Below, one piece after another: positions 4,828 to 10,768 of a stretch of 10,768 nt of DNA (its first letter is position 1; each line of letters starts with the position of its first letter). The notes beneath the pieces are model-generated. The model ran no database searches and was not told the origin of the DNA. It saw nothing but the letters and a program-made list of their open reading frames with translations. This DNA comes from Chloroflexi bacterium RIFCSPLOWO2_02_FULL_71_16 (GTDB taxonomy: Bacteria > Chloroflexota > Limnocylindria > P2-11E). The DNA is taken from contig MGON01000066.1 in assembly GCA_001795345.1 (NCBI GenBank), forward strand, positions 40,362 to 51,129. The letters run 5' to 3'. The translations under genes and the position numbers were made by a program.

Positions 4828-4973
4828 TCGTCTCCAAGCGCGTCGGGTCGAGAGGATGGGTCCTGTTGAAGGAGAAGGTGGTGACTTTGCACCAAATTGG
4901 TGCAACACAGCACCGAATTGGTGCAGCTCCACCACTTCCCCTGAAGAAGACCCCAAAGCGGGAAACCCAGTGA
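4824..4973 (+). CDS. Small basic 49-residue ORF linking purE to purB (hypothetical)
   Basis: ATG 4824 overlaps the purE stop as ATGA, and the stop TGA 4971-4973 overlaps the purB GTG as GTGA, so this frame fills the whole purE-purB gap. The first 20 codons have 18 G/C third positions, like true genes here. The later part, over the palindromes, does not. The predicted peptide is Lys/Arg-rich. It contains an in-frame 7-residue tandem repeat (HQIGATQ then HRIGAAP) and a basic Pro-rich tail (KKTPKRETQ). I do not recognise a family. It could be a real small protein, or a translated leader that carries ribosomes from purE to purB and holds the hairpin open. The double 4-nt overlap is the main argument. 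A chance origin is possible, because GC-rich DNA often stays open for 50 codons. Confidence 0.5.
   Translation: MIVSKRVGSRGWVLLKEKVVTLHQIGATQHRIGAAPPLPLKKTPKRETQ
4876..4937 (+). promoter_or_regulatory. Long RNA hairpin upstream of purB
   Basis: Positions 4887-4903 pair with 4910-4926 around the loop AACACA. This gives 17 positions with one A-A mismatch and two G-U wobbles. After a symmetric 3x3 internal loop, 4876-4883 pairs with 4930-4937 (8 pairs, one wobble). The outer helix is not a by-product of the palindromes and argues for selection on RNA structure. No T-run follows, so an intrinsic terminator is unlikely. The structure lies 33 nt upstream of the purB GTG. Pairing was checked base by base; stability was not computed. 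Confidence 0.6.
4888..4925 (+). promoter_or_regulatory. Tandem palindromic operator, NtrC-enhancer-like
   Basis: TGCACCAAATTGGTGCA (4888-4904) is a perfect odd palindrome. AGCACCGAATTGGTGCA (4909-4925) is a near copy with one intact half-site. The copies start 21 bp apart, two helical turns, placing two dimers on the same DNA face. The first copy matches the established NtrC (NRI) consensus TGCACCA-N3-TGGTGCA at every defined base. I find no sigma-54 -24/-12 promoter (GG-N10-GC) between the sites or directly after them. The binder could instead be an unrelated regulator with a similar site. Confidence 0.6.
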
Positions 4974-7646: not shown

Positions 7647-7850
7647 ATGAGCAGGATCACGGTTCGCATCGACCCGGAGTTGATCGCTCGCGTCATGCTC
7701 AAGTACGGCTTTCGGACGAAGCGCGAAGCGATCGACTTCGCACTGCGCCAGGCGGCCGGCTACGACGCCAGTGAGATCCTCGCGCTTAGGGGGACCGGCT
7801 GGGAAGGCGACCTGCGGAAGATGCGGAGGACCAGAAACCTGGAGATCTGA
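7647..7850 (+). CDS. Orphan VapB-type antitoxin / ribbon-helix-helix protein
   Basis: The 67-residue product looks like a VapB-family antitoxin. A beta strand SRITVRID (2-9) and helices over ELIARVMLKYGFRTKREAIDFALRQ form the ribbon-helix-helix DNA-binding dimer. The tail LALRGTGWEGDL (46-57) is the toxin-binding segment typical of this family. The normal partner VapC, a PIN-domain RNase, usually starts in a TGATG overlap. Here TGATG is present (7848-7852) but leads only to a 16-codon frame with no PIN motif, so the antitoxin is an orphan. Codons such as TTG, AGG, AGA and GCA make its usage less biased than its neighbours, suggesting acquisition. It may act as a local DNA-binding regulator. 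The gene call is firm and the VapB assignment good; any role in purine control is speculation. Confidence 0.82.
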   Translation: MSRITVRIDPELIARVMLKYGFRTKREAIDFALRQAAGYDASEILALRGTGWEGDLRKMRRTRNLEI

Positions 7851-7910: not shown

Positions 7911-8699
7911 ATGACGAAGATCGCGGTCCTCCGCTTCCCTGGAACGTGGAGCGAGCGCGACTTCGAGCACGCGCTCGGGCTGGTAGGCGCGGAGACGCGG
8001 ATCCTGTGGCACGAGGACGTCCGGCTCGAGGGCTTCGACGCCGCGGTCGTCCCCGGCGGCTTCGCCTACGGCGACTACGTCCGCGCCGGCGCGATCGCGC
8101 GCCTCTCGCCGGCGATCCGCGAGCTGCGCCGCTTCGCCGAGGCGGGCGGCCCCGTGCTCGGCAGCTGCAACGGCTTCCAGATCCTGTGCGAGGCGGGACT
8201 GCTGCCGGGCGCGCTGACGCGCAACACCGGTCTCGAGTTCCGCTGCGACTGGGTCGGCATGAGGATCGAGACCGACGCGACCCCGTTCACGCGCGGCCTG
8301 AGGGGGGACCTGGTGCGCATGCCCATCGCGCACGGCGAGGGCTGCTGGGTGGCCGACGCGGCGACCGTCGCCAGGGTCGAGGAGCGTGGCCTCGTGGTCT
8401 TCCGCTACGTCGACGAGCACGGCCGCGCCACGCCGGAGGCCAACCCGAACGGATCGGTGAACAACATCGCGGGCCTGCGGAACGAGATGGGCAACGTGGT
8501 CGGCCTCATGCCGCATCCCGAGCGCTGCGCCGAGCCGCTCATGGGCGGCACAGACGGACTCAAGGTGCTTCGCAGCCTCGTCGCGTCAGTCGGCAAGGAA
8601 GTTGCCGAGGAGGCACCTGTGACATCGGGAACGAAAGCGGCCGATCAGCAAGGTGCGGCCTACTTAAAAGGCGCGGCCTACTTGAAAGGCTGCGGCTGA
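7911..8699 (+). CDS. purQ: Phosphoribosylformylglycinamidine synthase subunit PurQ, with repeat-bearing tail
   Basis: PurQ hydrolyses glutamine and supplies ammonia to PurL. The 262-residue product has PGGFAYGDYVRAGAIAR (48-64), the nucleophile elbow GSCNGFQIL (Cys86) and the His202/Glu204 pair in MPHPER, so the glutaminase triad is intact. The usual early GSNCD motif reads GTWSE (11-15). The family normally ends near DGLKVLRSLV (215-224). Here a tail of about 38 residues follows, rich in Ala, Gly and Lys, and ending in a DNA-level tandem repeat (GAAYLK twice). Part of the tail (PVTSGTKAA, 236-244) resembles the PurL N-terminus (PVLTGTKAA). The gene has its own promoter-like box and is separated from purS by the VapB-like gene and from purL by the MNT-HEPN gene. 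Confidence 0.94.
   Translation: MTKIAVLRFPGTWSERDFEHALGLVGAETRILWHEDVRLEGFDAAVVPGGFAYGDYVRAGAIARLSPAIRELRRFAEAGGPVLGSCNGFQILCEAGLLPGALTRNTGLEFRCDWVGMRIETDATPFTRGLRGDLVRMPIAHGEGCWVADAATVARVEERGLVVFRYVDEHGRATPEANPNGSVNNIAGLRNEMGNVVGLMPHPERCAEPLMGGTDGLKVLRSLVASVGKEVAEEAPVTSGTKAADQQGAAYLKGAAYLKGCG
8626..8641 (+). repeat. Direct repeat, left copy (partner at 9643-9658)
   Basis: CGGGAACGAAAGCGGC in the purQ tail matches CGGGGACGAAAGCGGC at 9643-9658 in the purL start at 15 of 16 positions. Both are read in the same phase, giving GTKAA. The copies flank the MNT-HEPN gene, 1017 bp apart. Confidence 0.5.
8652..8697 (+). repeat. 18-bp tandem repeat at the 3' end of purQ
   Basis: GGTGCGGCCTACTTAAAA (8652-8669) is followed directly by GGCGCGGCCTACTTGAAA (8670-8687), 16 of 18 identical. 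A partial third copy, GGCTGCGGCT (8688-8697), ends at the stop codon. It encodes GAAYLK twice then GCG. The first copy uses TTA, a very rare codon in DNA this GC-rich. It may be a slippage product or a short regulatory repeat before the next gene. Confidence 0.7.
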
Positions 8700-8703
8700 T
8701 CAA

Positions 8704-9558
8704 GTGGATCTATTCGAACGGCAGGCGCAGATGGCGACGCTCTTCCAGACCAATCCGGTCGACGCCGCCTACGCGCACGCGCTCGCCCAGGGCAAGCGCG
8801 TGGTCGGCAAGAGCTCGGAGGTCGTGGACATCGCCCTGCTGCTCCTCGACCAGGTCCGCGCCAACGAGTTCTTCGACTACCAGGTGTACTTCGTGAGCGA
8901 GCTCTCGAAGGCGCTCGAGACGAGCGACGTCGACGTGCTCATCCTCAACCGCGCCTCGCTCCTCCAGCGCGCCAAGGTGGTCCGCAGCTGGGGGCTCCTC
9001 TACCAGCGGGACCAGAAGCGCCGGGTCGTGTTCGAGGCCCGCGCGGTCATGGACTACCTCGAGTTCCAGAAGTACGACGACCTGCAGTCGAAGGCGCTGG
9101 CCGAGCGGACGCGCGGCGAGCGCTTCGCCATCGACGAGACGTACGTGCGGGCGCGGCTCGCGCGGCTGCGCGAGTACGTGCGCCTGCTGATGGACCTGCG
9201 GCCCATCGAGCCGACGAAGTTCAAGGCCGACCCGAAGCTGTACGGCCTCGCCCAGTGGTACCTGCAGCAGGCGGTCGAGCTCCTGTTCGGCACCGGCGCC
9301 TACCTAGTGATGGCCCTCGCTCTGCCGAAGCCGGAGGCGTACCACGACATCCTCGACGCCATCGCCGGCCGCGGGATCATCGACAAGCCGCTCGCGTACA
9401 AGCTCGAGCAGCTGGCGAACCTCCGGAACCTGCTCGCCTACGACCGGGAGCAGACAGACATCGACGAGGTGCACGGCCACATCCAGACGCGCCTCGGCGA
9501 GCTGGCCGCCTTCGCGGACCAGGTCGAGGCCTTCCTAGGGGGCGACGCGCAGGTCTAG
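8704..9558 (+). CDS. Fused MntA-like nucleotidyltransferase and HepT-like HEPN protein, both motifs degenerate
   Basis: The 284-residue product reads as a minimal nucleotidyltransferase domain (about 20-125) joined to a HEPN/DUF86 domain (about 145-278). MntA-like marks are the DVDVLILNRASLLQRAKVV block (75-93) and LLYQRD/VFEARAVMDYLEF (98-121). HepT-like marks are ARLREYVRLL, the helix around WYLQQAVELLFGTGAYLV, and FRNLL-type RNLLAYDRE (241-249). In active MNT enzymes a GS motif and a D-x-D pair bind nucleotide and metal. Here the aligned places read HA (25-26) and SEVVD (38-42). The HEPN RNase motif RN-x3-H-x-Y reads RNLLAYDR, so His is Tyr246 and Tyr is Arg248. Normally these are two genes forming the type VII toxin-antitoxin pair, in which MntA AMPylates HepT. 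This looks like a domesticated, non-catalytic fusion, perhaps a nucleotide-sensing or scaffold partner of PurQ/PurL (inference). GTG 8704 lies 4 nt after the purQ stop; ATG 8731 is an alternative. Confidence 0.8.
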   Translation: MDLFERQAQMATLFQTNPVDAAYAHALAQGKRVVGKSSEVVDIALLLLDQVRANEFFDYQVYFVSELSKALETSDVDVLILNRASLLQRAKVVRSWGLLYQRDQKRRVVFEARAVMDYLEFQKYDDLQSKALAERTRGERFAIDETYVRARLARLREYVRLLMDLRPIEPTKFKADPKLYGLAQWYLQQAVELLFGTGAYLVMALALPKPEAYHDILDAIAGRGIIDKPLAYKLEQLANLRNLLAYDREQTDIDEVHGHIQTRLGELAAFADQVEAFLGGDAQV

Positions 9559-9570
9559 CCGGGGGCTCCG

Positions 9571-9584
9571 CGCGTCGGTAGGCT
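9571..9584 (+). promoter_or_regulatory. Leaderless-type promoter before purL (-10 TAGGCT)
   Basis: TAGGCT (9579-9584) ends 7 nt before ATG 9592, the spacing seen at guaB and purQ. The 14-mer CGCGTCGGTAGGCT matches the guaB promoter region (80-93) at 12 positions. The start it serves is that of a 10-codon ORF, not of purL itself. No good -35 is visible. Confidence 0.45.
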
Positions 9585-9591
9585 AGAGGTG

Positions 9592-9624
9592 ATGGCGCGG
9601 CGCGGAGAGTTCCTCCGGTCATGA
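9592..9624 (+). CDS. 10-codon upstream ORF coupled to purL
   Basis: ATG 9592 follows a -10 box by 7 nt. It opens the frame MARRGEFLRS, ending at TGA 9622-9624, which overlaps the purL ATG (9621) as ATGA. A leaderless mRNA would begin with this mini-ORF. A ribosome reading it would melt the downstream hairpin (9603-9617) and stop exactly at the purL start. It has no amino-acid run typical of attenuation. Small size means chance cannot be excluded. Confidence 0.4.
   Translation: MARRGEFLRS
9603..9617 (+). promoter_or_regulatory. Hairpin pairing the purL ribosome binding site
   Basis: CGGAG (9603-9607) pairs with CTCCG (9613-9617) around AGTTC. The left arm begins the only Shine-Dalgarno-like sequence before purL, GGAGAG (9604-9609), 11 nt upstream of ATG 9621. 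The stem is short but GC-rich and could limit purL initiation unless opened by translation of the mini-ORF. Confidence 0.4.
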
Positions 9625-10768
9625 GCCCGTCCCCGGTGCTCACGGGGACGAAAGCGGCGCAGCCTAGCCCGCAGCAGGACATCGCTCGCGAGGTCGGCCT
9701 GACCCCGAACGAAGCGGGGCACGTTCGCGCGCTCGTCGCCCGTGAACCCAACCACCTCGAGTGGGGGATGTTCGGTGCGATGTGGAGCGAGCACTGCGCC
9801 TACAAGCACTCGAAGCCGCTCCTCCGGACGCTCCCGTCGACGGGCGCGCGCGTGGCCATCGGCCCCGGCGAGAACGCCGGCGCGGTCGACCTCGGCGACG
9901 GCCTCCTCTGCGTCTTCAAGGTCGAGAGCCACAACCACCCGAGCGCGGTCGAGCCCTACCAGGGCGCCGCGACCGGCGTCGGCGGGATCCTCCGGGACGT
10001 CTTCGCCATGGGCGCGCGGCCCGTCGCGGTCCTCAACGCGCTCTTCTTCGGCCCGCCCGAGCACCAGCGGACGCGCCGCCTCGTGTCCGGCGTCGTCGGC
10101 GGCATCTCCTTCTACGGGAACTGCGTCGGCATCCCCGACGTGGGCGGCCACGTCTCTTTCGAGCCGTGCTACGCCGACAACCCGCTGGTGAACGCGATGT
10201 GTGTCGGGATCGTCCACCGCGACGACCTACGGCGCGCCGACACCGCTCGTCCCGGCAGCGCCGTCTACCTCGTGGGCAGCGACACCGGGCGCGACGGCAT
10301 CGCCGGTGCGTCGCTCCTCGCCTCCTTCGAGCTGGGCGCGGCCGACGACAGCAAGCGCCCCTCGGTGCAGGTGGGGAACCCGTTCCTCGAGAAGCTGCTC
10401 ATGGAGGCCACCATCGAGCTCGTGCGCAGCGACGCGGTCGAGGCGATCCAGGACCTGGGTGCGGCCGGCCTGACCTGCGCGACCAGCGAGGTGGCGGCTC
10501 GCAGCGGCGTCGGCATGCGCATCGACGTGGACCTCGTGCCGCGGCGGGCGACCGGGATGATCCCGTACGAGGTGATGCTCTCGGAGTCGCAGGAGCGGAT
10601 GCTCGTCGTCGCCCGGCCCGGGCGGGAGCGCGACGTCGAGGACACCTTCCGCCGCTGGGAGCTCCACGGCACGCTAATCGGCGAGGTCATCCCCGAGCCG
10701 GTGCTCGAGATCCGCTCGGGCGGGGAGGTCGTCGCGACGCTGCCGCCGAAGGCGCTCGCCGACGATGC
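9621..10768 (+). CDS. purL: Phosphoribosylformylglycinamidine synthase subunit PurL (5' part)
   Basis: PurL is the ATP-dependent synthetase subunit that converts FGAR to FGAM with ammonia from PurQ. The window holds 382 codons, about half of the usual small PurL (roughly 720-750), and the frame is open at the right edge. Visible motifs are MWSEHCAYKHSK (54-65), VESHNHPSAVEPYQGAATGVGG (101-122) with the nucleotide and metal-binding residues, the loop GSDTGRDGIAGA (219-230), VQVGNPFLEKLLMEA (249-263), DLGAAGLTCATSE (278-290) and SESQERM (321-327). ATG 9621 is chosen because it precedes the family N-terminus and overlaps the mini-ORF stop. The first 18 or so residues are a variable leader whose PVLTGTKAA resembles the PurQ tail. 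Confidence 0.95.
   Translation, partial: MSPSPVLTGTKAAQPSPQQDIAREVGLTPNEAGHVRALVAREPNHLEWGMFGAMWSEHCAYKHSKPLLRTLPSTGARVAIGPGENAGAVDLGDGLLCVFKVESHNHPSAVEPYQGAATGVGGILRDVFAMGARPVAVLNALFFGPPEHQRTRRLVSGVVGGISFYGNCVGIPDVGGHVSFEPCYADNPLVNAMCVGIVHRDDLRRADTARPGSAVYLVGSDTGRDGIAGASLLASFELGAADDSKRPSVQVGNPFLEKLLMEATIELVRSDAVEAIQDLGAAGLTCATSEVAARSGVGMRIDVDLVPRRATGMIPYEVMLSESQERMLVVARPGRERDVEDTFRRWELHGTLIGEVIPEPVLEIRSGGEVVATLPPKALADD

Follow-up and report, generated by a model that had tools for sequence, protein, structure and literature searches.

A fused MntA-HepT-like protein, probably disarmed and domesticated, encoded between purQ and purL in an order of Chloroflexota

The general idea of RNase-dead, domesticated proteins in which an MNT and a HEPN domain are fused is already in print: the domestication of MNT-HEPN pairs was proposed in 2013, and fused MNT-HEPN proteins, reported to be typically devoid of the RNase residues, are said to have given rise to the regulators of glutamine synthetase (PMC3710099). 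Among the closest described systems is the MntA-HepT pair of Shewanella (SO_3165/SO_3166; PDB 5yep, 6m6u, 7bxo). The motif of its MntA is GSX10DXD, and changing the GS, or both Asp residues to Glu, is reported to have abolished the modification of HepT (PMC7641770). GlnE/GlnD are described as domesticated proteins that join a nucleotidyltransferase to a HEPN-like helical domain without the RNase motif, and MtlR, an often inactive HEPN regulator of the mannitol operon, as a motif-less HEPN protein in a metabolic operon (PMC3710099). Concerning purine synthesis, the PurF of Methanospirillum hungatei carries a C-terminal HEPN domain, fused to the enzyme and reported as unique to that species (PMC3261824). 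A literature search, mostly over titles and the first part of abstracts, found no paper on an MNT-HEPN fusion in a purine operon.

Such a fusion is encoded in the window (the whole stretch of 10,768 nucleotides analysed here) at 8704..9558 of the forward strand, as a gene of 284 codons with a GTG start and a TAG stop. It has the HEPN family and, going by weaker profile matches, the MNT family in common with Shewanella MntA-HepT, but it is one chain, lacks RX4HXY, has an eroded GSX10DXD and is fixed in a metabolic operon. GlnE/GlnD are catalytic, whereas the equivalent site of the window's fusion is eroded, and neither of them appeared among the family, PDB-sequence or fold results for it; the gene adjoins purQ, and PurQ is a glutamine amidotransferase domain. 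As in the case of MtlR, the HEPN domain is encoded inside an operon, but the operon is a different one and the window's protein has an additional MNT half.

The earlier note, made from the letters alone, had described one chain with an MNT-like half and a HEPN/DUF86 half, and this description holds. A type VII toxin-antitoxin system consists of two genes, whereas the fusion is a single uninterrupted frame; its relatives give full-length matches without stops, and their start, MDLFEKQAQ, lies at the same place as its GTG start. The HEPN (HepT-like) half comprises residues 151-273 (9154..9522, forward strand). In the profile search proposed in that note, the C-terminal half matched Pfam PF01934 (E 1.6e-14) and passed the cut-off of NCBIfam HepT (61.9 bits, cut-off 60), so that the HepT/HEPN domain of type VII toxins is present. 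The MntA-like half (residues 1-125; 8704..9078, forward strand) stayed below the cut-offs, with 42.3 bits against 60 for NCBIfam MntA (E 5.3e-11, residues 41-124 only) and 21 bits against 26.9 for Pfam Polbeta, and the MntA model recognises every one of the 70 sequences in alignment A2 (E 0.001). Structure prediction, which had also been suggested, was informative for one half: in the models built from 63 and 70 aligned sequences the MNT half is mostly under pLDDT 50-60, and the structural list of VIA-align covers the HEPN half only, so the missing MNT fold is no evidence against MNT. Since this half could not be modelled, the assignment of the MNT fold rests on profiles. PADLOC gave no match.

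The former RNase motif, at residues 241-248 (9424..9447, forward strand), reads RNLLAYDR, as the earlier note had it, and not RX4HXY: Arg and Asn are kept, the catalytic His is replaced by Tyr and the target Tyr by Arg. The same losses extend through the window's order. The relatives listed are 215 proteins, namely the best 120 of 571 and the best 120 of 493 protein matches, and in the 214 of them with residues at these positions Arg is always present, Asn is present in 213, the catalytic His is always Tyr or Phe, and the target Tyr is always Arg or Lys. By genome, none of 25 keeps the His and none of 25 keeps the target Tyr. Moreover, 36 residues that never vary in the listed proteins of the order do not occur in the proteins listed for the Ktedonosporobacter family of another branch; the HEPN half holds 25 of these 36, N242 and R248 of the old pocket among them. 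This is the distribution expected if the HEPN half took on a role specific to the clade, and it points to a binding role.

Some of these proteins (P0044, P0216) are named "HepT family RNase toxin" in public databases. The names claim more than the motifs bear out: the target Tyr is missing, and P0044 belongs to the window's order, where the catalytic His is absent as well.

On the MNT side, the GS position reads A26 L27 (8779..8784) and the D-x-D position E39 V40 V41 D42 with a one-residue insertion (8818..8829), while the third acidic residue, D77, is kept (8932..8934; all on the forward strand). With AL and EVVD the window has neither the antitoxin motif GSX10DXD, whose spacing is X11 in the relatives, nor the intact nucleotidyltransferase site of GlnE/GlnD. 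The previous statement that GS and D-x-D are absent is therefore right for the window, but D77 remains there, and D-x-D is intact in 160 of the 215 matches listed (Glu at the first place without insertion in 24), D77 being Asp in 206. The GS position is more variable among these 215, with GT in 97, GS in 46, GM in 41 and AL in 14, so the full set of GS, D-x-D and D is found in 31 of them, or in 112 with GT allowed. Counted by genome within the order, 19 of the 26 genomes with residues there retain D-x-D, and all 26 retain D77. As most relatives keep D-x-D, the loss of both sites fits the window's branch only and had to be given up as a property of the family. Judging by these motifs, both sites of the window's protein are probably inactive, and in most relatives the erosion of the MNT side is just partial.

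A frameshift artefact was rejected as the origin of the inserted residue, since the same insertion occurs in proteins from separate contigs (15 of the 215 matches listed).

The location between purQ and purL was confirmed. The stop of purQ (7911..8699, forward strand) lies 4 nt before the start of the fusion, and purL (9621..10768, forward strand) follows and runs off the window. Of the 177 genomes of the class, 28 have a match (E 0.001); 27 of them are in the window's order, and the other, G001, has an ordinary split pair (E 4e-9). Orthologs are present in 27 of the 29 genomes of the order (26 of 28 in the window's family and the single genome of a second family), counts that include many incomplete genomes, the window's own being 77.8% complete. 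The two genomes without the gene are 71% and 66% complete, one without a purL match and the other with a purL fragment only. The named copies come from metagenome-assembled genomes of Chloroflexota, some of them labelled Limnocylindria by their sources. Conservation of the locus in relatives, on which the earlier note had made its reading depend, is thus observed. A chance open reading frame was rejected given the conservation of the fusion across the order, and a recent toxin-antitoxin insertion given its presence in two families.

Regarding the neighbouring genes, the context search suggested in that note found purL downstream, in the same orientation, in each of the 24 genomes with enough sequence to tell (within 75 nt in 19 and at 0.34-1.34 kb in five); three genomes lack that room, and one of these, G146, ends in the element at the purL start described below. 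Upstream, purQ is present in 24 of the 26 genomes with room, the exceptions being G144 and G152 (in G144 and G145 the front of the fusion was taken as a second partial match on another contig). The tie to purL is therefore tighter than the tie to purQ, and these two exceptions, together with the five genomes with sequence before purL, indicate that strict adjacency is not required. From the end of purQ to the start of the fusion there are -4 to +9 nt in 20 rows (L063, with masked bases, was left out), and the stop of the fusion overlaps the start of purL as ATGA or GTGA in 10 of 21. In all 30 loci read from the sister family f3, out of 39 genomes with a purL match, purL comes directly after purQ, so the fusion was either gained in the window's order or lost in f3.

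The sequences inserted before purL include other open frames (L056:4879-5898, L058:4891-6117, L060:4698-5603 and L068:4930-5580), and these inserts leave the element at the purL start with purL.

The comparison of substitution rates across homologs, which had been recommended, revealed a strong purifying constraint. The 15 pairs listed give dN/dS values of 0.10-0.41 for the fusion, which are rough since dS is a simple Jukes-Cantor count on GC-rich DNA. When all pairs are taken, the fusion has a median dN of 0.178, compared with 0.211 for purQ and 0.174 for purL (first 382 codons); the fusion evolves about as slowly as purL. Its fastest part is residues 1-50, with the old MNT active site (mean pN 0.22 versus 0.13-0.16 elsewhere).

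Outside the order, alignment A1 was used as the query against 400 genomes of the phylum and matched in 63 of them (E 1e-5), and full-length fused relatives were found in several families of another branch. In a tree of 46 rows, the proteins of the order split from this second branch (86/83). The gene is present in 25 of the 29 genomes of the Ktedonosporobacter rubrisoli family, which includes P0216, a full-length relative, and the rows aligned are 41-45% identical to the window's protein. All 25 genomes keep D77 and, unlike the window's protein, D-x-D, and 16 of 25 have GS or GT; on the HEPN side, all of 24 genomes have the Arg and 10 of them the His, but the target Tyr is missing from every one. 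A third protein search, in which the full MNT set was found in 107 and the His in 120 of the best 120 of 1111 matches, is more uniform than the family by genome because it lists the nearest matches. In three further families (f13, f35 and f38; five sequences), D-x-D and D77 are kept, with GS or GT in four and GA in one, and the HEPN His is replaced by Arg or Ser. Two sequences of the family f69 (G360, G419) are canonical fused pairs, one chain with the same domain order as the window's fusion, but they keep GSX10DXD and RNxxxHxY and are separated from it by a very long branch. The absence of homologs with intact motifs, on which the former reading also depended, is consequently contradicted on the MNT side and, in part, at the RNase His, which is present in those 10 of 24 genomes and in none within the order.

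With regard to the neighbourhood of these relatives, nine pur and gua proteins of the window, used as tblastn queries, had no match in 23 loci outside the order (flanks of about 1.5 to 5 kb), among which 13 genomes of the Ktedonosporobacter family are represented. A purine link, as put forward in the earlier note, is thus supported by the fixed place within the window's order and does not extend to the relatives outside it.

Taken together, the reading we favour, tentatively, is that of a domesticated, non-toxic regulatory or assembly partner of PurS-PurQ-PurL that acts at the protein level. More generally, the fusion probably does a harmless regulatory job in the purine operon and is conserved like a housekeeping gene. 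Domestication, as previously suggested, agrees with the intact frame, the purifying constraint, the fixed place and the loss of the RNase residues throughout the order, but the loss of both sites, which was part of the argument, is not family-wide. In the course of events that we propose, a type VII toxin-antitoxin pair would have become one chain in an ancestor within Chloroflexota. The fused chain would then have lost the AMPylated Tyr and afterwards the RNase His, completely in the window's order and repeatedly or partially in the other branch. It would have arrived between purQ and purL in the ancestor of the order and become fixed there as a non-toxic part of the purine operon, the erosion of the MNT site coming after this arrival. 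With RNase activity presumably gone, and nucleotidyl transfer also gone in the window's branch, the old HEPN pocket (Arg and Asn, no His) and the eroding nucleotide site could serve as ligand-binding or docking surfaces and not as catalytic centres. The fusion is closely co-translated with PurQ and PurL, and this, together with the glutamine synthetase precedent, makes partnership with PurQ and PurL at the protein level the likeliest of the functions considered; most plausibly the fusion is small and helps to regulate or assemble the PurS-PurQ-PurL enzyme. Contact with PurQ or PurL, and any sensing of a ligand such as the ATP or AMP named in the earlier note, are expectations of this scheme. 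If the fusion controls FGAM synthase, it would add an unrecognised layer to purine regulation.

What speaks most strongly against a reading without any catalysis comes from the other branch, in which the transferase acids have lasted longer than the RNase His. D-x-D and D77 persist in most relatives and in every Ktedonosporobacter-family genome with the residues, and this makes a role entirely without catalysis less likely for those proteins. Of 24 genomes in that family, 14 have lost the His, so that the decay of the RNase residue precedes that of the transferase acids there. It was considered that in many relatives the MNT half is an active nucleotidyltransferase that modifies PurL, PurQ or another target in the manner of GlnE/GlnD, with HEPN as a regulatory domain and the window's branch as a late degenerating version. 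The 112 listed matches with GS or GT plus the acids are consistent with it, as is the general precedent of such enzymes (PMC3710099). However, within the order the complete set occurs in no more than 31 of the 215 listed matches, GS or GT is found in only 16 of the 25 Ktedonosporobacter-family genomes, the spacing is one residue longer than in GSX10DXD, and, in a protein that evolves slowly, the region of the active site changes fastest. Furthermore, Met and Glu occur here at positions whose GS or Asp-to-Glu changes are reported to abolish modification in Shewanella (PMC7641770). We regard an active transferase as rather unlikely, and return to the preferred non-catalytic partner of the purine enzyme.

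Several intermediates of the proposed course exist within the family: the canonical fused pair (2 sequences), the chain with the Tyr lost and the His kept (10 genomes), the chain with the His lost and the transferase acids kept, and the eroding transferase with a dead HEPN half. These make the steps from toxin to housekeeping protein testable one by one.

The start of purL carries a second conserved feature, a hairpin element of 57 nt over the start codon (9621..9677, forward strand). In it, the start codon is followed by a GC hairpin, which has 7-8 bp in most rows, and the hairpin typically by ACGGCGCAGCCTAA. A covariance model scores at least 29.7 bits in 25 of the 28 genomes of the window's family, 24 of them at the purL start. 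In the remaining one, G152, the element lies before purF, after the end of purL (L130:480-536), with a ribosome-binding-like AAGGAGG behind it, and the purL start is without it. In G146 the contig ends inside the element, and in G131 (L149) purL changes frame shortly after it in the assembly. At E 0.01 the model matches 90 of 177 genomes, and the best match outside the 25 counted reaches 26.8 bits, close enough to the lowest one counted that location decides for the weakest matches. In the class searched, the element is counted in the window's family only, and no match outside that family exceeds these 26.8 bits. A plain pattern with up to 3 mismatches was found in 29 of 177 genomes, 22 of them in the family; the other seven have 3 mismatches each.

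Codon choice within the element is uniform: Pro is CCT in 21 of 21 rows (baseline 0.05), Ser TCC in 18 of 18 (0.16) and Gly GGG in 17 of 17 (0.21), the rows being related and hence not independent. The purL starts of the sister family are without the element. The median z of the hairpin is -1.41 in the family (21 rows) versus +0.41 in the sister family (28 rows), a comparison in which 3 of 24 family rows and 2 of 30 sister-family rows gave no value, and the starts of the latter were taken as the nearest start codon (that of L069 being mis-assigned). An alignment of 19 purL starts (A3) showed no stem, because the loop lengths differ, whereas a set of 14 rows of equal length (A4) did; its counts are biased by the choice of rows, as 7 of 21 with variant spacing or sequence were left out (L004, L007, L010, L012, L013, L015 and L019). 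Covariation supports the stem weakly.

At gathering scores Rfam gave no match in the window, the element included. At 8560-9760, three weak hits to families of eukaryotic RNAs (E up to 5) were put down to chance, and a likeness of the element's tail to the c-di-GMP-I riboswitch was dropped for lack of support in Rfam.

This element raises a reading that appears about as improbable as the active transferase, in which the fusion regulates at the RNA level: the disarmed HEPN half would bind this hairpin, or else the mRNA of the operon, and so control translation. The position of the element, over the start of purL in 24 family genomes and ahead of purF in G152, the constraint at nucleotide level on its CCT, TCC and GGG codons, and a hairpin weaker or absent at the purL starts of the sister family, where the fusion is absent too, are all compatible with it. 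So are the Arg and Asn retained in the former RNase pocket and the precedent of inactive HEPN proteins of the MtlR family (PMC3710099). Nevertheless, the single genome of the second family (G127) carries the fusion and gives no match to the covariance model. The z values of single sequences are modest, just 2 of 21 lying below -2, and the covariation is thin, since its two pairs changed on both sides were reached by 49 of 500 shuffles. A narrower form, that fusion and element make one control device in which the RNA-binding pocket of the former RNase reads the hairpin and sets the translation of purL, is more doubtful still; we think equally little of its further parts, a bound nucleotide perhaps, and translation of purF where the element moved. 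A partner that works through contact with the purine enzyme is still the preferred reading.

The fusion could also be a passenger without a purine role, with a general cell function and merely co-transcribed with purL. Its relatives are nearly universal in the Ktedonosporobacter family (25 of 29 genomes) and located elsewhere; in seven loci of that family the gene lies among what we take to be YccA-, GntR-, TPR- and moaD/moaE-like genes, and the position beside presumed moaD/moaE-like genes in some of them was counted for this reading. However, in the window's order the position with purL is kept in all 24 testable genomes, and the stop and start codons overlap in about half of the rows, which leaves the passenger very improbable.

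Least probable of all, although by a little, is a toxin-antitoxin or addiction module lying by chance within an essential operon, for which a VapB-like antitoxin gene between purS and purQ in the window (7647-7850; Pfam 28.4 bits, cut-off 23.4) and the toxicity of motif-less HEPN proteins in a genome-scale screen cited by PMC3710099 could be invoked, but which is at odds with a single chain lacking the RNase His and the target Tyr, kept at one place across two families under housekeeping-like constraint.

Other features of the region were also noted. Beside the VapB-like gene of the window, no toxin gene was noticed by eye. The gap between purS and purQ varies: in L057:2474-3243 it holds two small adjacent genes that look by eye like a toxin-antitoxin pair, and in L056 and L060 a different frame. 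No tRNA was found. PurQ has a short C-terminal tail, often GTxPA, in the window's family (purQ 3' ends, L052-L073). Upstream of purB, two tandem 16-nt palindromes, GCACCAAATTGGTGCA and GCACCGAATTGGTGCA, lie 21 nt apart at 4889-4925, and we take them to resemble NtrC operators.
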